Positions 16,988 to 24,614 of a stretch of DNA of 64,000 nt are shown in pieces. Location: NCBI GenBank assembly GCA_018267475.1, contig JAFDYI010000014.1:1-64000 (forward strand), read 5' to 3'. A program made the translations under genes and the position numbers. The DNA is from Bacteroidota bacterium (lineage in GTDB: Bacteria > Bacteroidota > Bacteroidia > B-17B0 > Aurantibacillaceae). The stretch's first letter is position 1; each line of letters opens with the position of its first letter. The notes below the pieces were generated by a model. It worked only from the letters and a program-made list of their open reading frames with translations, did not search any database and was not told the origin of the DNA.

Positions 16988-19867
16988 TTATTCTTTCACA
17001 AACTTTTGCGAGTATATGCCTTGGTTGCTTTTAGCGCGTATAAAATACACGCCACTGGCCAGGCTGCTAACAGGCAATACAGCATAACCATTTAATTGCG
17101 GATATTGATACCCCCCAACTACGTTGCCCAACATATCAAAAACTTCAATAGTTGCGTTTTGCTGAGGTTCCGAAAAATGGACATATAAATTAGTGCTGGC
17201 TGGGTTGGGATATACCGTTAAAGAAAGACTTGGTTCTTTTATTTTCTGAATGCCTACCGAATTCAGGTTTAAGCAAGAGGGAAAATCGTTGTTGTCAAAC
17301 CAACGCTTAATACGTTGATTGTCTTTTTTCGCGCTTTTTATTAAACAAACTTCTTCAGTAACAAAGCCTCCTACGGTATCATACATACAGGCAGCCGAAT
17401 CTTGGGTAAAGACATAAGCATAATTAAGCTCAGTACTTCCGTATGCCGGCAACGAAAAAGGGCCAACTCCCAGCATAAAACGCCTATCGCCAAAGGCATC
17501 GCCGGGGGTATTAAACTCTGCCCAGTTTGGATATGCAGTAGGGGTAGCTACCGGGTTGGCATAAGTGCCGCCTAAGCCCATACCATAAGGGTCGCTATCA
17601 TAAGGGTACAAATATTTGCAAACCGGGTTTGATGCGCTTACAGGGGTAAAACCTAAGTTTCCATAGGTCATTTGTACGCCACCACTCTCCCACACACCCG
17701 CCATAAGGTTGTAGTAGGATTGGGCTCCGAAGGGGGTCCCGTTTAGAGGAGCTCCTGTATTGCTGTAATAAGTAAAATTGCTCATCAGGCATTGCTCGCC
17801 GGGTTCATCTACCAAATAGTTGTGGTTGTTGTCCACCCCATCGTGCGGGTAGGCTAAGGGCCCTGTAAGCACATTGCAAGAAAACACAGGTAAGTTGCTA
17901 TGGTAGCCGCTTAAAAAATCATAATCAGGATCCCAGTTTTCTCCGTTATAGGTATAGCCAAAATTATTCATTACATCGCAGCCTATATAGTCGTCTAAAT
18001 AATAGCCCAGGTCTGAGTCCACCCACAAGTCCATATAAGTTTGGTTGTAGTTGTTAGCGCTTCGGTTGTATATTTTGTAATCGTAAAAGGTAGTGTTGTT
18101 TAGTACTTTATTGCTATCGGCTATGCCGGGGCAGGTATAAGCATAGGCGCTGGCTTGCACTTCTACCCCTAAATTTTGTGCAGACCCGGTTTCGGTGTGT
18201 TTGTTGGCATTGTCGTTAAAAACCCACCAAATCATTTGGTCGCCTTTTATGAGAGGGTAATCGCCTTGCATGCAGTTATAGTGCCCGTCGTGATTTACAT
18301 CTACATAAGGCGCTAAGGTTTGTCCGGGGTAGGGCGAGTTACCGGGCCAAGTAATAAAATCAGCGGGCGGGGTAAACAAGCCGCTTTGCACATTACCTGC
18401 TGCCCAGTTGTACATAAAGTTAGCCACATCAAATCGGTTTATTTTCCAAACACGGTTGTAGTTCATCATCATAGCGCTGTCTATATTGGCATTGTGCGCC
18501 GAATCTAAGGGGCCCGGCCAAAAATCGTAGCCGTTTTGTCGGTAGGTCATAGCGGCCATGCGCAGGTTGTTGCTATTGTCGTAGCCTCCTATCCAAAAGG
18601 CGGAATTATACACCGGGCTTTGCATTTTTTGTTTTGAAGTAAAATACTTGGTAGTACTGCTTAGTACATCACAATGAATTTGCGAGTTGGGCGTCATCAT
18701 AGCATTGATGTTGTTGATATCTAAAAATTGCGAGTTGCTGTTAGATGGATCAATAGCGTGTATAGTAGAAGCTGTGTAATCATACGAATAAAGAATCATT
18801 CCGGCCCCTGCGCCTGCAGCAGAACTATTTAAATTAGTAAAGAAAATTTGATGAGAGCCTTTATCGTGTACGGCAATGGTGGGGTTGTTATTGTTTGAAG
18901 TAGGTGCAAACATAGACGCATATCCACCAGGCAAATTATATGAATACCAGTCTGTATGGGTTACTTCATGAGTGCAGCCTAGAGCAAATTTCCCGTTAAT
19001 CAATTCATTACAAGACATAAAAGCAGCGCCTCCTTTTGGCCCTGTAAAGATGCAGCCTACATTAAGGGGGAAATGCCCCATTCCGAGCGAGTCTTGTGTT
19101 TGTTGTACGGAAAACAGTTGTTGCACGGGGTAGAAATGAGTTCCATCGTATTTTATAACTCCCGAACCAAAAGTACCTAACCATTTGTTGTGCCAGGCAT
19201 CTACATAAATGCAATTTACGGTAACGGTGGTGCTGGGTACTACATTGTAAAAAGTAAAGGCCGTCCCATCAAATTTTTGCAAGCCGCTTTGGTTTCCTAT
19301 CCATACGGCGTTGGGGTTTTCGGCTGTGATGCAGCCGATATAATTGCTTTGCAAGCCGTTAGATATGTTGTAATTGGTGCAGCTGGTACCGTTAAAAACG
19401 GATAGACCGCTGTGATGGGTGCCGGCATATACCATGCCGCCGCTACAAGCAATAGAAATAACGGTGTCGTTAATAAGAGCCGAATTGGCTGTGTTGTAAG
19501 TAGTAAAGGTGCTGCCGTTGTATTTGGTAAGCCCTATGTTAGAGCCTATCCATAAATTATTAGCAGCATCTACCGCCAAAGCATACACTTGGTTGGAGGG
19601 CGATAGCGCGGTAAAAGCAGGAAACGTATCCCACTGGGTACCATTATAGCGCAGCAGTTGAAAAGAATTGGCGTTTTTAAAAGAAAATCCGATCCACTTG
19701 TTGCCGGTACTATCTATTACAAAAGCGCTTCTTTGGTGCATGTTTAAGGGGGTAATTGATGCGCCTGTTATGGTAGTGGGGTAATTGGTAATACCCATAC
19801 CTGCTTGAGCCTTGATGCTTATATTTGCTGCTATAGCAAAAACCAAAAGAAAATAAAAATGCCTCAT
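16988..19867 (-). CDS. Large secreted protein with propeller repeats and T9SS sorting domain
   Basis: A 959-residue exported protein. After a signal peptide (ending IKAQA) come four or more short repeats of the two-component-regulator propeller type at about 50-260 (WIGSNIGLTKYNG, WIGNQSGLQKFDG, WLGTFGSGVIKYDG). The long middle region has a calcium-loop-like motif (DVNHDGHYN). The last 80 residues are a type IX secretion sorting domain (VYPNPASTNLYVHF ... LASGVYFIRAKS). It should pass the outer membrane through T9SS and be surface-bound or released. The ligand is unknown. A TATCTTTG promoter element lies 40 bases upstream. Confidence 0.88.
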   Translation of the reverse strand: MRHFYFLLVFAIAANISIKAQAGMGITNYPTTITGASITPLNMHQRSAFVIDSTGNKWIGFSFKNANSFQLLRYNGTQWDTFPAFTALSPSNQVYALAVDAANNLWIGSNIGLTKYNGSTFTTYNTANSALINDTVISIACSGGMVYAGTHHSGLSVFNGTSCTNYNISNGLQSNYIGCITAENPNAVWIGNQSGLQKFDGTAFTFYNVVPSTTVTVNCIYVDAWHNKWLGTFGSGVIKYDGTHFYPVQQLFSVQQTQDSLGMGHFPLNVGCIFTGPKGGAAFMSCNELINGKFALGCTHEVTHTDWYSYNLPGGYASMFAPTSNNNNPTIAVHDKGSHQIFFTNLNSSAAGAGAGMILYSYDYTASTIHAIDPSNSNSQFLDINNINAMMTPNSQIHCDVLSSTTKYFTSKQKMQSPVYNSAFWIGGYDNSNNLRMAAMTYRQNGYDFWPGPLDSAHNANIDSAMMMNYNRVWKINRFDVANFMYNWAAGNVQSGLFTPPADFITWPGNSPYPGQTLAPYVDVNHDGHYNCMQGDYPLIKGDQMIWWVFNDNANKHTETGSAQNLGVEVQASAYAYTCPGIADSNKVLNNTTFYDYKIYNRSANNYNQTYMDLWVDSDLGYYLDDYIGCDVMNNFGYTYNGENWDPDYDFLSGYHSNLPVFSCNVLTGPLAYPHDGVDNNHNYLVDEPGEQCLMSNFTYYSNTGAPLNGTPFGAQSYYNLMAGVWESGGVQMTYGNLGFTPVSASNPVCKYLYPYDSDPYGMGLGGTYANPVATPTAYPNWAEFNTPGDAFGDRRFMLGVGPFSLPAYGSTELNYAYVFTQDSAACMYDTVGGFVTEEVCLIKSAKKDNQRIKRWFDNNDFPSCLNLNSVGIQKIKEPSLSLTVYPNPASTNLYVHFSEPQQNATIEVFDMLGNVVGGYQYPQLNGYAVLPVSSLASGVYFIRAKSNQGIYSQKFVKE

Positions 19868-19907
19868 ATTTTTTGTTTTAGTGGGTTTGTACTTCGTTTC
19901 TCTGTTA

Positions 19908-19915
19908 CAAAGATA
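19908..19915 (-). promoter_or_regulatory. -7 element (TATCTTTG) of T9SS gene
   Basis: On the minus strand it matches TAnnTTTG and sits 40 bases before the start at 19867. The TTG at 19929-19931 is closer than usual (13 bases). Confidence 0.5.
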
Positions 19916-20009
19916 GAATGTTTAAAAGCAAAAAAGGAACATTTTTAATATCTGGCGGTATTTTTTATATATCTGGTCGGTTTGGGCACAAATTCGGTAA
20001 AAAAGCATT

Positions 20010-20270
20010 TTATAAACAGGAAGGATTAAGCGACATATTTAAGTTGAAGTAGTATAAACGTTCACCCTCTTTCATAGCCAACTGTATATCTTGCGGTTGG
20101 GCTAAGGTAGCTTTTTGAGAAACCGACGGCGCTTTATGCACCTGCCTACAAGCGGTGCAAACATTTCGGAGTTTACGGTTGCCCGCTGCATCATAAGTAT
20201 ATTGCTCTTTTTGTGCTTGCATGGCAAAACTTGCAAAGACCAGTAAAAGTAATGTGAGTGTTTTTTTCAT
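20010..20270 (-). CDS. Secreted RHS N-terminal remnant (single YD repeat)
   Basis: An 86-residue ORF with a signal peptide (ending FAMQAQ), then YTYDAAGNRKLRN, which is a YD/RHS repeat unit, and an unrelated short tail. It looks like the 5' end of a larger RHS gene that has lost the rest, or a very short RHS-like secreted peptide. Its ATG overlaps the stop of the orphan RHS module before it (the ATGA pair at 20267-20270), so it may be translated by coupling. It closes the RHS array; the T9SS protein gene follows on the same strand. Confidence 0.6.
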   Translation of the reverse strand: MKKTLTLLLLVFASFAMQAQKEQYTYDAAGNRKLRNVCTACRQVHKAPSVSQKATLAQPQDIQLAMKEGERLYYFNLNMSLNPSCL

Positions 20271-20605
20271 AGTGTTTTATCCATTAGTGGGTCAATGCTT
20301 AAAAACAAACCCAGTTTGCTGTCGTAAATACGCCCGTTCATATTTATCAGGTCAAAGTTTTGTAAATGCTCGTGCCCGGTAAAGCCTCGGTAAATAATAC
20401 CTGTGGGCGGCCGCACGTTGGTATAAGTCCAGTCGTTTGGGTTTCTATACCTGCCCCAGGGGTCAAAGCTTTGTTCGGCACGGGTTGCGCTTAGTTTTAC
20501 TACAACTGTATCTTCGTTGGCTTGTATGTTTTTTGCAAAGCAAAGTAACAACAGCACAACAACTATTTTACTGCATTTGCTTTTTATGTTATTACTGTTT
20601 TGCAT
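20267..20605 (-). CDS. Orphan RHS core module with own signal peptide (A)
   Basis: A 112-residue protein. A signal peptide is followed by QANEDTVVVKLS and then a stretch of RHS core from RAEQSFDPWGRYRNP to LSIDPLMDKT, where it stops. The core is nearly identical at DNA level to 23586-23791 in the main RHS gene. It has no C-terminal toxin tip, because the frame ends exactly where other copies continue with PGISPYHYA. It is probably a recombination donor or receptor segment, or a decayed cassette. I infer no enzymatic activity. The leader is shared with the two other orphan modules at 20743-21039 and 21450-22367. Confidence 0.75.
   Translation of the reverse strand: MQNSNNIKSKCSKIVVVLLLLCFAKNIQANEDTVVVKLSATRAEQSFDPWGRYRNPNDWTYTNVRPPTGIIYRGFTGHEHLQNFDLINMNGRIYDSKLGLFLSIDPLMDKTL
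20274..20479 (-). repeat. RHS core repeat, copy in orphan module A
   Basis: A 206-base tract that aligns without gaps to 23586-23791, with only scattered mismatches by eye. It encodes RAEQSFDP through PLMDKT. Such tracts allow tips to be swapped by homologous recombination. Confidence 0.85.
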
Positions 20606-20632
20606 TTTTACTAAAAGTGATTTTCTGATACA

Positions 20633-20743
20633 TTACCCGGGATATACACTAAAACTATCTGTAACATATTTATCAAGGCAAATAAATAAGATAATTAACA
20701 GCATAATAATTAGGATTATAATTATGACAACTTTTTTTTTCAT
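20633..20743 (-). CDS. Small predicted membrane peptide (36 aa)
   Basis: An ATG-initiated frame whose first base overlaps the stop codon of orphan module B (TAATG). It encodes three lysines, then about 20 hydrophobic residues rich in Ile/Leu (VVIIIILIIMLLIILFICL), then a short polar tail ending YPG. The position directly after a toxin-tip-like module is where an immunity gene is expected. A 36-residue single-span peptide could be a truncated immunity protein or a chance frame. The tight overlap and the transmembrane pattern are the only support. Confidence 0.45.
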   Translation of the reverse strand: MKKKVVIIIILIIMLLIILFICLDKYVTDSFSVYPG

Positions 20744-21039
20744 TAGCGTATATTAATTGAACCATATATTGCCGAATAAGGGTAATTAGCAAATATTGCA
20801 TTATTTGTATTATTACCGTAATACCCTAATGTAACTTGTCTTCCTGAATATGGAATTTCACCATAATAAGGGGCAACTTCAGGATTAGGTATTAAATCAA
20901 ATTGCGGTAGGTGTTCGTGTCCGGTAAAGCCTCTGTATATTATGCCTGTTGGTAGTTTTACTACAACCGTATCTTCGTTGGCTTGTATTTTTCCAAACCA
21001 AATAAATAACAAGAAAAATATGTATATTATCCTTTTCAT
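20743..21039 (-). CDS. Orphan RHS module with own signal peptide and short tip (B)
   Basis: A 98-residue protein with a signal peptide (ending FGKIQA), the shared NEDTVVVKL leader, then only a short RHS core segment (PTGIIYRGFTGHEHL) that switches to a unique 50-residue tail rich in Tyr, Asn and Pro. The tail does not match any toxin family I recognise. Compared with modules A and C the core has been cut down, and the tail starts right after PQFDLIPNP. It lies 12 bases downstream of the candidate immunity gene at 21052-21438, so it follows the previous toxin-immunity pair. Confidence 0.7.
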   Translation of the reverse strand: MKRIIYIFFLLFIWFGKIQANEDTVVVKLPTGIIYRGFTGHEHLPQFDLIPNPEVAPYYGEIPYSGRQVTLGYYGNNTNNAIFANYPYSAIYGSINIR

Positions 21040-21051
21040 TAAATGTTATAC

Positions 21052-21438
21052 TTATTTTCTAAAGGGGAATTTTTTAAAAGAATAAGTCTTAATTCCTTTG
21101 CCGTATTCGTGTACTCCTATTACTTGTTTTTGAATGCTTTTTGAGTTTAAAATTTGTGATATGTTAGTTATTTTAGTGTCTGAAGTATCTTTAATAGAAA
21201 TAAAGTAAGTGTTCTGTCGTTTTGTTTGTTCATCAGGAACAATATTAAAGTAATATTCTGATAATAAATTCCAACACTGTTTATTCATTAGATTAAAATT
21301 ATTTAGTCCAATAAAATAATTAGTTACACTGTCTTTTAAATACTCTTTATTATCATAAAATACACTAATATCACATTTTTTCTGAGCGTAGGATATATAC
21401 GCTGTAAAAGATAATAGTATTACGAATTTCAATCTCAT
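21052..21438 (-). CDS. Secreted small protein, candidate immunity to module C
   Basis: A 128-residue protein with a signal peptide (ending ISYAQ) and a mature part with no recognised domain. It starts 11 bases after orphan RHS module C and is followed by module B. Position alone (small exported protein directly after an RHS tip) suggests it neutralises that tip in the periplasm, as immunity proteins do in polymorphic toxin loci. Base composition is AT-rich, unlike the RHS core segments but like the variable tips. Function is an inference from context. Confidence 0.6.
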   Translation of the reverse strand: MRLKFVILLSFTAYISYAQKKCDISVFYDNKEYLKDSVTNYFIGLNNFNLMNKQCWNLLSEYYFNIVPDEQTKRQNTYFISIKDTSDTKITNISQILNSKSIQKQVIGVHEYGKGIKTYSFKKFPFRK

Positions 21439-21449
21439 ATTTTAAATCT

Positions 21450-22367
21450 TTACTTTGTAATTTCTATTGCTTTTATTAACGCTTGAAAGTGCATATGATT
21501 TTGATGAGGAAATGTGGCAGATGAATTAGGAATAAAAGGAGCGTTCCCATCTTTGTTTAATGTAATTACATTCCAAATACCTTCATTATTAAATCCAAAC
21601 TTTCTAAAGTAATTTGCGTATTCAGCACTTTTTACAGCATCAGCATTATCATTTCTCGTGTCTGACTGAACAGAATATGGTACTCTTTCTTTACCAATAT
21701 ATTGAACATCAACTAATGTTTTCTTAGAGGGTTTACCTGGATTTTTTTGGTTTGTATTATTGGGAGAATGAACCCCTTCTTCATTCATTAGCTGATTAAC
21801 TTTTGAAACGTAGCCTGTCTTTTCAAAATATGAATATGTAGCACCTAAGAAAGATGCTGCGCCATCTTCGGGTAAAAAATTTGTTCCTTGATAAAACAAT
21901 TGATGAGCAAAGAAAGATGTTTTTTGAGGTAATTCAATCATACCTTTTTTATTAACTTTATATGTCCCTAAATCTACTTTTGTACCATCATGTTTTACAT
22001 AAGTATATGTATTCGTTAGGTCTTTAGTTCTTTCAACTCCTACTGCTCCGTCTTCGTGTATCAAATAATTATCTTCATAGTTCCCTGTAATATCAGTAAA
22101 CTTAAGCGGGTTGTTATTAGCATAGTGGTAAGGGCTAATACCCGGTGTTTTATCCATCAAAGGGTCAATACTTAAAAATAAGCCAAGTTTACTGTCGTAC
22201 ACACGTCCGTTCATATTTATCAGGTCAAAGTTTTGTAAATGCTCGTGCCCGGTAAAGCCTCGGTAAGTAATACCTTTAGATAGCTTTACAACAACTGTAT
22301 CTTCATTTGCTTGTACTTTTGCAAGCATAATAAAAAATAAAGCTATCATTTGTAGTGTTTTTTTCAT
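21450..22367 (-). CDS. Orphan RHS module with signal peptide and toxin-like tip (C)
   Basis: A 305-residue protein. It has a signal peptide (ending AKVQA), the shared NEDTVVVKLS leader, an RHS core (GITYRGFTGHEHL ... GISPYHYANNNPLKFTD, about residues 30-95), then a unique 210-residue tip. The tip ends with VDVQYIG and HQNHMHFQ, which resemble the Asp and H-x-H zinc ligands of LAS-type murein peptidases (MepA/M15). I do not find the expected first His, so a peptidoglycan-cutting role is only a suggestion. An exported 128-residue candidate immunity protein follows 11 bases later. Confidence 0.75.
   Translation of the reverse strand: MKKTLQMIALFFIMLAKVQANEDTVVVKLSKGITYRGFTGHEHLQNFDLINMNGRVYDSKLGLFLSIDPLMDKTPGISPYHYANNNPLKFTDITGNYEDNYLIHEDGAVGVERTKDLTNTYTYVKHDGTKVDLGTYKVNKKGMIELPQKTSFFAHQLFYQGTNFLPEDGAASFLGATYSYFEKTGYVSKVNQLMNEEGVHSPNNTNQKNPGKPSKKTLVDVQYIGKERVPYSVQSDTRNDNADAVKSAEYANYFRKFGFNNEGIWNVITLNKDGNAPFIPNSSATFPHQNHMHFQALIKAIEITK
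22093..22270 (-). repeat. RHS core repeat, copy in module C
   Basis: Encodes the core from ITYRGFTGHEHL to NPLKFTD and is closely similar to about 23535-23716 in the main RHS gene. It extends 40 bases further toward the tip than the copy in module A. Confidence 0.8.
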
Positions 22368-22374
22368 CTATTGA

Positions 22375-22794
22375 TTAATTCTTTTTGCAATCTTCGTATT
22401 TTCCATTAAAAATTAAACTAAAATCATAAGACCGCCATAATGATTTTCCACTATGAAAATCTTTTGTTTCTTCATCTGTCATTTCTTTTTTAGTTAAAAA
22501 TAAACTATCTGGAATAGTATTCTCTATTATTGAATTGCTAATAACTGTTATGGGATTTGCTCCCCAATTAATATCCATACCTCCTGAATAAATATGCATT
22601 TTAATGTATTCTTTTCGTTTTATATTGTCATAAGCACCAAAAAAAAGTCTTACATACTTACTTTCATTTGGAATAATCGAAGTCGTATACTCTAACGTTA
22701 AACTTTCTTTTTTATTCGGAGAATAGATTGTATAACTTTCGTGAAAACACGAAGTCAAAAAAAACACACTAATTATATAGAATAATATCTTCAT
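22375..22794 (-). CDS. Lipoprotein, candidate immunity to the main RHS tip
   Basis: I place the start at the ATG at 22794 (MKILFYIISVFFLTSC), giving 139 residues with a clear lipobox Cys about residue 16. A longer frame upstream would bury the signal peptide. The start is one base after the stop of the main RHS gene, so translation is almost certainly coupled. The mature part has no family I recognise. A small lipoprotein directly after an RHS toxin is the usual layout of an immunity gene, and the lipid anchor would place it in the periplasm or on the membrane. Confidence 0.68.
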   Translation of the reverse strand: MKILFYIISVFFLTSCFHESYTIYSPNKKESLTLEYTTSIIPNESKYVRLFFGAYDNIKRKEYIKMHIYSGGMDINWGANPITVISNSIIENTIPDSLFLTKKEMTDEETKDFHSGKSLWRSYDFSLIFNGKYEDCKKN

Positions 22795-22795
22795 T

Positions 22796-24424
22796 TTATT
22801 TTTGAAATTGATAGTAACCTGCCCTTTGTAAATCTTGAGACACTTTGTCGTCGTGGAATGCGGGTGAAATATTAATACCTTGAATCGGTGTCCCGTTAAT
22901 AGCACCTCCCATTAATTGTTGGTCAAGCCAATTTAATCCAGATTTTAAATAAAATAAAAATCCTTTTTGATTTCCATTATCGTTATATGCTCCAAAACCA
23001 GACATTGTTGTTTCATATGACAATCCTAACATATTGGCAGTTCTTCCTGCAAAAAAATTACCTTGGTCTCTTCTAGTCATAATTAAATACTCATTATAAA
23101 AAGAAGCTTGGTATCCATATTTATCTCTTTCTGCTTGCGTTGTGTTTTTATAATCAAGCCCAACAGATTTAATATCATATTTACCTCCATTTCCCGCATT
23201 AGCCATATAATCTTTAAAAGATTCATACATACTATGACTTAACATAAAATTTCCTAATGTTCTAGTTGCGTTTGAAACATTCTGATGAGCTTCATCCCCA
23301 AAATCGACTTTCCCAATCCATTCTCCTGTTTTTGGATTTTTAAACGTATATTCAGATCCTGTATATCCAACATATGTGCCTGATTTTTTATATTCTTCTG
23401 TTTTACCTTCATCAAACTTTTCTTTTGTAACACCTTTCACTTGATATACTCCTTTATCTCCGTCAATTTTTCCTCCAATCACATTTCCAAATTCATCTAC
23501 AAAAGTGCTTTGCCCGGTTGTGCCACTCGGGTCAGTAAATTTAAGTGGGTTATTCAAAGCATAGTGGTAAGGGCTAATACCCGGTGTTTTATCCATCAAA
23601 GGGTCAATACTTAAAAATAAGCCCAGTTTGCTATCGTACACACGCCCGTTCATATTTATCAGGTCAAAGTTTTGTAAATGCTCGTGCCCGGTAAAACCTC
23701 GGTAAATAATACCTGTGGGCGGCAGCACGTTGGTATAAGTCCAGTCGTTTGGGTTTCTATACCTGCCCCAGGGGTCAAAGCTTTGTTCGGCTCTTACAGT
23801 TCCGTTGGCATCAGTTAGTTTTAAAATACTGCCCAGGTGGTCGGTATATACAAAATACAAAGTATCATCGCTACCGTTTTTGGCGTATATGGCGCATAAG
23901 CCGCTGGGGGCTTGTATGTAGCTAAGCTCACGGCTGTATTGGTTTGCTCCTGTTGTTTTTTCGTAGTTGGGTACATAGTCTCTTTTTAGCTGTGTGCCTG
24001 TATTGGTGTTGGTTAGTATGCTTTGTACGCGCTGCATATCGGGTCCGTAGCTTATGTCGTAGGTATAATCGCCTTCGGTTAGGTTGGTAAGTTTGCTAAA
24101 GCTGTTGTAGGCAGCACTTTGGGTGTTGCTGCTAATGCTTGCGTCCACGTTTTCTACGGTGTTTAGTTGGTTAAAGGCGTTGTTTTGATAAGCATAGTTA
24201 CCTAAGTTAGAGCCATTAGGGCTTGTGGATGTTTTTTTGGCAATGTTGCCTGTGCCCGTAGTTTGGTACGCAAGGGTAGTAACGTTGGCATTAATGGTGT
24301 TGGTGGTAAGGCGGTTTATGCCATCGTAGCCAAAGGTTTCGGTAAGGCCGCGCAAGAGGTCGCTTCTGCCGGTTATGTTGCCGTTGGTAATATCGGGTGT
24401 GATGCGTACATTATAGGTACTCAT
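22796..24424 (-). CDS. RHS-repeat protein with C-terminal toxin-like tip
   Basis: I start this 542-residue protein at ATG 24424 (MSTYNVRITP), six bases after a perfect promoter -7 element. Residues about 1-225 carry YD/RHS repeats (ETFGYDGINRL, DYTYDISYGPDMQR, YFVYTDHLGSILKL). The conserved core end RAEQSFDPWGRY to NPLKFTDPSGT runs to about 300, and a 240-residue variable tip follows. The tip has a GNFFAGRTANMLGLS segment that faintly recalls the polymorphic toxin-44 family; I would not assign an activity. There is no signal peptide, and the core is much shorter than that of typical RHS proteins, so either the 5' part has been lost or export depends on something else. Confidence 0.82.
   Translation of the reverse strand: MSTYNVRITPDITNGNITGRSDLLRGLTETFGYDGINRLTTNTINANVTTLAYQTTGTGNIAKKTSTSPNGSNLGNYAYQNNAFNQLNTVENVDASISSNTQSAAYNSFSKLTNLTEGDYTYDISYGPDMQRVQSILTNTNTGTQLKRDYVPNYEKTTGANQYSRELSYIQAPSGLCAIYAKNGSDDTLYFVYTDHLGSILKLTDANGTVRAEQSFDPWGRYRNPNDWTYTNVLPPTGIIYRGFTGHEHLQNFDLINMNGRVYDSKLGLFLSIDPLMDKTPGISPYHYALNNPLKFTDPSGTTGQSTFVDEFGNVIGGKIDGDKGVYQVKGVTKEKFDEGKTEEYKKSGTYVGYTGSEYTFKNPKTGEWIGKVDFGDEAHQNVSNATRTLGNFMLSHSMYESFKDYMANAGNGGKYDIKSVGLDYKNTTQAERDKYGYQASFYNEYLIMTRRDQGNFFAGRTANMLGLSYETTMSGFGAYNDNGNQKGFLFYLKSGLNWLDQQLMGGAINGTPIQGINISPAFHDDKVSQDLQRAGYYQFQK
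23586..23791 (-). repeat. RHS core repeat, copy in main RHS gene
   Basis: A 206-base segment shared with 20274-20479 and, over its 3' two thirds, with 22093-22270. Confidence 0.85.
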
Positions 24425-24429
24425 AAGTG

Positions 24430-24460
24430 CAAATATAGTACACATTTTTACCTAAAGCAA
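24430..24460 (-). promoter_or_regulatory. Promoter of the RHS array
   Basis: On the minus strand TTG (24458-24460), 20 bases, then TATATTTG (24430-24437). The start codon at 24424 follows within six bases, so the transcript would be nearly leaderless. Confidence 0.75.
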
Positions 24461-24614
24461 AAACACGAGTGGTTATTCCTTATTTTTGATTACAAAGAAT
24501 GTTTTTTACTTTTTATTTAGTTCACGAAAAACAGACCTCCTTCTTTTTGCCAAAGATTTTTTTACAGCCCCTATGAAAAGAAAAAAAATCTCGCTCTTGC
24601 TTTAAACATTTTAT

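Follow-up and report, generated by a model that had tools for sequence, protein, structure and literature searches.

Orphan toxin modules of the cdiA-CT/cdiI and rhs-CT/rhsI types, described in E. coli, Dickeya and Salmonella, are tip fragments with remnants of a parent gene and an immunity gene that lie downstream of a main gene (PMC3150448, PMC3967940; published systems are described throughout after excerpts of the cited papers). Such orphans generally or usually lack a translation start, and those of E. coli EC93 and Salmonella are described in these excerpts as lacking an export signal, so that orphan tips as usually described must recombine into a full-length gene for export. In EC93, the orphan modules are co-transcribed with the main gene (PMC3150448). 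Here we analyzed an RHS array within positions 1–64,000 (the window, 64,000 nt in all) of contig JAFDYI010000014.1 from a Bacteroidota bacterium (B-17B0; Aurantibacillaceae; assembly GCA_018267475.1). In contrast to the known orphans, three modules of this array, A, B and C, each begin with an ATG and a signal-peptide-like sequence and share one leader, so that the usual description of an orphan does not fit them. An earlier, sequence-only reading of this DNA had proposed that the orphan units of an RHS toxin/immunity array are here equipped with export leaders of their own, which our analysis supports and extends to start codons. With about even confidence, we predict from the sequence that an orphan RHS toxin/immunity array has here been turned into a set of translated, Sec-exported mini-RHS proteins.

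Leader-bearing orphan modules in one array

The array consists of eight open frames on the minus strand (24461–20010, head site included) in the order main gene, imm1, module C, imm2, module B, a 36-aa membrane peptide, module A and D. Neighboring frames are at most 27 nt apart (1, 7, 11 and 12 nt, an overlap of 1 nt, 27 nt and an overlap of 4 nt, in that order), with overlaps in two pairs. DNA repeat families of 208, 63 and 40 nt occur within the array beyond chance expectation.

Module C (21450–22367, minus strand) comprises a signal peptide, the motif QANEDTVVVKL, an RHS core from SKGITYRG and a tip of ∼212 aa ending in HQNHMHFQ.... In module B (20743–21039, minus strand), the signal peptide and motif are followed by 21 core residues (PTGIIYRG...FDLI) and a 48-aa tail, and in module A (20267–20605, minus strand) by 70 core residues from RAEQSFDP, without a tip. 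The N-terminal starts of C (MKKTLQMIALFFIMLAKVQANEDTVVVKL), B (MKRIIYIFFLLFIWFGKIQANEDTVVVKL) and A (MQNSNNIKSKCSKIVVVLLLLCFAKNIQANEDTVVVKL) were all flagged as strongly signal-peptide-like, while the main gene and the RHS locus on contig 37 of the same genome were not. DNA comparison placed the motif copies at 22281–22313 (C), 20953–20985 (B) and 20492–20524 (A), all on the minus strand. The identity of all eleven residues in the three copies is beyond chance, and the frames and copies were confirmed as first described. By eye, there is no lipobox cysteine at the likely cleavage site, where the leaders read (I/V)QANEDT; A has LLLLC, with no small residue before the cysteine. A domain search found no type IX C-terminal sorting domain in the main gene, A, B, C or D. 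Each orphan would thus begin at its own start codon with a type-I signal peptide, presumably cleaved after (I/V)QA, to leave a conserved mature start, NEDTVVVKL, followed by a core stub and, in C, by a full tip. From the periplasm, the exported proteins might leave in vesicles, by lysis or by an outer-membrane route.

The junction to the core is the same in B and C (KL-PTGIIYRG and KL-SKGITYRG), and module A has 28 extra residues at this point, 25 of them core from RAEQS. There are therefore two junctions instead of the three (RAEQSFDP, PTGIIYRG, KGITYRGF) distinguished before. Derivation of the leader from the main RHS gene was rejected, as the protein score was reached by 1868 of 2000 shuffles and the DNA score by 418 of 500 (A) and 473 of 500 (C) shuffles; A shares merely the 8-nt TAAAACTA with the main gene.

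A promoter-like site of the Bacteroidota type (TTTG-N20-TATATTTG; 24430–24461, minus strand) ends 5 nt before the ATG of the main gene at 24424. Sites of the form TTTG-N17..23-TAnnTTTG occur 16 times in the window compared to 6.2 expected, a number reached by none of 100 shuffles, and this enrichment fits the Bacteroidota promoter consensus. Besides the site at the array head, the minus strand has no second two-box site from 18936 to 24461, so that separate promoters of this type for A, B and C were rejected, and separate transcription of the orphan modules, as first suggested, is not supported. Because the frames are tightly packed and the one promoter-like site lies at the array head, the array is probably transcribed as a single operon. 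The transcript would start near 24425 and run through the main gene, imm1, C, imm2, B, the 36-aa peptide, A and D.

Core sequences, selection and a missing recipient gene

The cores of the main gene and of module C pass the TIGR03696 cut-off of 32.5 bits with 53.5 and 56 bits, respectively, while A scores below it (29.3 bits) and B gives no match. At the DNA level, the leaders of A and B are closest (97%), whereas the cores of A, C and the main gene are alike (90–94%) and that of B stands apart (73% to the main gene). Leader and core thus group the modules differently and have therefore been recombined or converted separately. Since B and C nevertheless share a junction, the leader-core fusion would have arisen once or twice in this lineage and then spread by duplication and recombination.

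The eleven leader codons differ at five nucleotide positions among the copies, and all five changes are synonymous (P 0.0008–0.0026, with 24–30% of single changes being synonymous without constraint; the stretch was chosen for its residue identity, which makes P optimistic). The 48 nt before the motif, which encode the hydrophobic parts, have merely 19–29 identities between copies. On the 44 core codons common to A, C and the main gene, seven synonymous changes and one nonsynonymous change fall on the A branch, and two synonymous and no nonsynonymous changes on the main branch.

The core also bears on the possibility that the modules are silent donors, like the cassettes of Salmonella or E. 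coli, with the leaders as irrelevant flanking sequence. Module C, with its core stub, tip and immunity gene, does have the classical orphan layout. However, the 99%-complete, 37-contig assembly contains no full-length RHS gene with this core, so that silent donors would be without a recombination target; its core places number five in all, four of them by TIGR03696, and the longest frame has 551 aa. Moreover, the core stub of B is down to 21 codons, which are 73% identical in DNA to the main gene, a poor substrate for recombination. We therefore consider silent donors very improbable.

The main RHS gene (22796–24424, minus strand) is itself 5′-truncated and without a signal peptide. It starts ∼245 residues before its core, compared to ∼1836 in a full-length relative from the same genus (L043 in genome G003; 2186 aa), which has a signal-peptide-like start, SpvB, TcdB_midN, FG-GAP and RHS repeats. 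Of these domains, the main gene has RHS sequence alone, and neither SpvB nor FG-GAP was found in the RHS proteins of the window. The earlier view of one promoter-bearing RHS toxin gene thus holds for the promoter-like site ahead of it and fails for a complete RHS toxin.

Tips and their exported partners

The tip of the main gene (∼22796–23521) resembles Ntox44 (PF15607) with 16.7 bits, below the gathering cut-off of 24; a homologous protein from genome G319 scores 17.4. Among the Ntox44 motifs DxK, GNxxxG and DxxxD, as tabulated in an excerpt of PMC3482391, the main tip by eye has YDIK and GNFFAG, and DxxxD is not exact. A search of solved structures gave one match, at E 0.15. The tip was matched in three of 247 genomes, own genome included, and its homologue in G319 (56–58% identity) ends a 3443-aa open frame that includes an RHS core. 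The next gene in G319 encodes 132 aa with a hydrophobic N-terminus; it was spotted by eye as a homologue of imm1, and shuffling bore this out (alignment score of 97, with a maximum of 50 in 1000 shuffles). The imm1 gene (22375–22794, minus strand) encodes a putative lipoprotein or exported immunity protein of 139 aa (...FFLTSC..., lipobox by eye), and the partner thus looks exported or membrane-anchored in both genomes. Because homologues of both adjoin in G319, the main tip is, as judged by these alignments, a genuine RHS tip that forms a pair with imm1 on two different RHS genes. The main gene and imm1 also show the orphan rhs-CT/rhsI layout.

Searches with imm1 and imm2 by tblastn gave no match in the fetched RHS-core loci. 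An immunity homologue in G209 was rejected (314 of 1000 shuffles score as well). In this genome, an RHS orphan whose tip is distantly related to the main one (L168) directly adjoins two tyrosine-recombinase-like genes (identified by eye), through which cassettes might be captured.

Module C and imm2 likewise have the orphan rhs-CT/rhsI layout of partial core, variable tip and downstream immunity gene, where imm2 (21052–21438, minus strand; 128 aa, signal-peptide-like start) is assigned as the putative immunity protein of C solely from its position. The small exported proteins that had been read as interleaved with the modules are thus borne out, imm1 as putative lipoprotein or exported protein and imm2 by its start. 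One other of 395 genomes has a homologue of tip C (G586; E 2e-5), a leaderless RHS orphan tip that is a distant relative, with 24% identity across 220 aligned columns (pairwise E 1e-11), and has the C-terminal HxH in common with tip C; its neighbor gene has a hydrophobic N-terminal stretch. The sole other match among 120 relatives, in G113, lies inside an esterase-like protein and was discarded as chance, as were imm2 matches in G581 and G736, which are frames with stops and no RHS gene seen nearby. Tip C had no match among solved structures, and the best hit of a PADLOC defence-model search was at E 0.014.

The genome has a second RHS locus (contig 37; L004 13–1842, L049 4999–6795), which adjoins groEL. 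Its RHS gene is 5′-truncated and ends in a Peptidase_M15_3 tip (E 3e-12), and the gene after it looks, by eye, like one for a lipoprotein. Taken together, the main tip pair, the tips of C and G586, and the M15 tip with its lipoprotein-like neighbor point to toxins acting on the envelope with exported immunity proteins. The tips would thus act where their exported partners sit, as suggested by the partner genes and the murein-peptidase tip.

The tight packing of tips and partners is also compatible with a relay, in which the leaders keep ribosomes moving so that the downstream exported immunity genes are made and the toxin parts are inert. In line with this, the orphan immunity protein of E. 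coli EC93 is made from a shared transcript and the orphan toxin apparently is not (PMC3150448, in excerpt), and a metal-ligand stretch may have been lost from tip C. However, expression of the EC93 immunity gene does without such a leader, and coupling needs no signal peptide, which would moreover place an envelope toxin where it is active. A relay therefore appears improbable to us.

The remaining frames are small. The 36-aa membrane peptide (20633–20743, minus strand) overlaps the stop of B (TAATG) and is a possible immunity remnant. D (20010–20270, minus strand) has a signal peptide and one YD repeat, with a 4-nt overlap with the stop of A. It belongs to a type of small RHS-locus companion with a signal peptide, one YD repeat (YxYDxxGNR), a linker and a type IX sorting-domain-like tail (145–176 aa; tail by eye), which we found in six loci outside the own genome (L035, L043, L057, L082, L120, L125) among 121 scanned, and twice in the own genome (L049 4311–4748, and D in truncated form). 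Outside the array, the neighboring gene at 16988–19867 carries a type IX C-terminal sorting domain.

Relatives, erosion and known systems

RHS cores are common in relatives, which were sampled at one genome per species: they were found in 75 of 395 genomes of the class (E 1e-9) and in 36 of 60 relatives (E 0.001), own genome in both counts, often as short orphan frames in tandem. Locus L026 (G050), for example, has eight tandem leaderless RHS orphan frames of ∼300–390 aa over ∼14 kb, a long tip store. We counted as short those frames whose core lies no more than 200 residues after the upstream stop and left out frames with a 5′ end outside the locus or a core further in. In 144 fetched loci outside the own genome, which cover part of all such places, this gave 120 distinct short RHS-core frames, of which three were flagged for a signal peptide and one is credible, with an unrelated leader; the flags in L027 and L028 fall on internal codons of RHS sequence. 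The credible case, L146 in G361 (749–1906), has a signal peptide, an unrelated ∼60-residue spacer, core and tip, and looks genuine. Its neighbor (134–730) encodes 198 aa with a signal-peptide-like start (by eye), and neither has a Pfam match. Three of five long frames, with the core further in, were flagged; the 24 intermediate frames gave no flags, as the script left that class unscored, and two flags from a smaller earlier scan that scored it (L037, L038) are both at internal GTG codons.

Candidates for the leader elsewhere were rejected. None of the ten stretches read, of 11 on viral contigs, joins a signal peptide to an RHS core. Module C matched 43 plasmid records, none over more than 80% of the module length; among the 15 matches listed, the two reaching furthest into the leader half lie within much longer RHS genes. 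A match extending into the leader region in L111 is a 48-aa frame without a signal peptide.

These comparisons bear on a further explanation, which has an appreciable chance of being correct: one or two chance fusions joined displaced RHS fragments to a signal-peptide leader, and the duplicated products are now eroding, without any role for the leader proteins. The frames themselves argue against decay, as none of the seven checked (including the main gene, imm1, C, imm2, B and A) has an internal stop, and so do the exclusively synonymous leader changes and the ratio of seven to one on the A branch. In favor of decay, A lacks a tip, B has a short tail, D is truncated, and the main gene is without its 5′ part and a signal peptide. 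In addition, no RHS frame lies beside the same aminotransferase gene in relatives G005 and G006, nor in G004 and G001 as far as their contigs reach (by eye). Relatives were compared at this flank alone, where the array is, on this evidence, lineage-specific, by insertion or other rearrangement. The picture of modules confined to one genome and decaying further, which the sequence-only reading had set against its own proposal, is half borne out: the leader is seen here only, and A, B and D look eroded.

Besides the choice of the leader stretch, several observations weigh against the export of mini-RHS proteins. The EDTVVVKL pattern was found in one of 297 relatives, which is the own genome, and in none of the 296 others, and ANEDTVVVKL was not found in a collection of 84,980 species, from which the own record was possibly left out; the own genome has no copy beyond the three with up to three mismatches. 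Signal peptides were called by a crude script and not by SignalP, and the −7 box by itself (TAnnTTTGC) shows no enrichment over the window (28 compared to 30 expected). The C branch of the core has three synonymous and two nonsynonymous changes, and the synonymous excess in the core may predate the leader fusion. Without a tip, A does not have the orphan rhs-CT/rhsI layout, which is doubtful for B with its mere 48-aa tail; D is cut off approximately where its relatives begin the sorting-domain-like tail (by eye), and the main gene is truncated and without a signal peptide. A stretch of the G586 tip, HHKDGRNLD, which is reminiscent of LAS peptidases (no Pfam match), has no clear counterpart in tip C, where the alignment is gappy. 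Finally, structure predictions without an alignment gave unusable models (mean pLDDT 31 and 37), and imm2 has no family above cut-off and no credible homologue in 394 other genomes.

If the modules are exported as we predict, NEDTVVVKL might be a shared address or assembly tag replacing the ∼2000-residue RHS delivery shell. The modules would then be free-standing Sec-exported mini-RHS effectors, through which a lineage that has lost its full-length RHS gene re-uses orphan tips by a new exit route, and L146 would be an independent instance. We consider this extension rather unlikely.

Several described systems share single features with the array, as far as the excerpts go. A Salmonella rhs orphan that works as a toxin-antitoxin module resembles it in that an orphan toxin is expressed without recombination into the main gene; in contrast, that toxin is active intracellularly and made from an internal promoter with a CTG start, and the excerpt describes no export leader (PMC7043789). 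MafB and the mafB-CT cassettes of Neisseria are secreted polymorphic toxins with signal peptides, and some cassettes have start codons (PMC4287609). However, full-length MafB consists of a signal peptide and DUF1020, the cassettes with start codons begin in an intein-like domain without a signal peptide, and the excerpt mentions no RHS core. The SitA toxins of myxobacteria, encoded in toxin/immunity cassettes, likewise combine a tip with a signal sequence in one protein, but these are lipoproteins passed by outer-membrane exchange (PMC5562445), whereas the leaders of the window lack a lipobox. The TcdB/TcaC (SpvB)-type RHS toxins of Bacteroidota, including L043, have the same type of RHS core (RGFTGHEHL...) and differ by an N-terminus of signal peptide, SpvB and propeller, present in L043 and absent from the RHS proteins of the window (PMC3482391). 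Signal peptides are also found in most TANFOR toxins of Bacteroidetes, which, however, are large proteins (PMC7073777).

A literature search of partial coverage, which is no proof of absence, found no description of an orphan RHS unit with its own signal peptide, and as far as this search shows, the locus is a previously undescribed version of the orphan RHS toxin/immunity array. If our prediction is true, orphans with their own start and export signal, in an assembly without a recipient gene, would represent a second way to use orphan tips, next to the recombination usually described for them, and the array offers a testable case for exported orphan tips and their exported partners.

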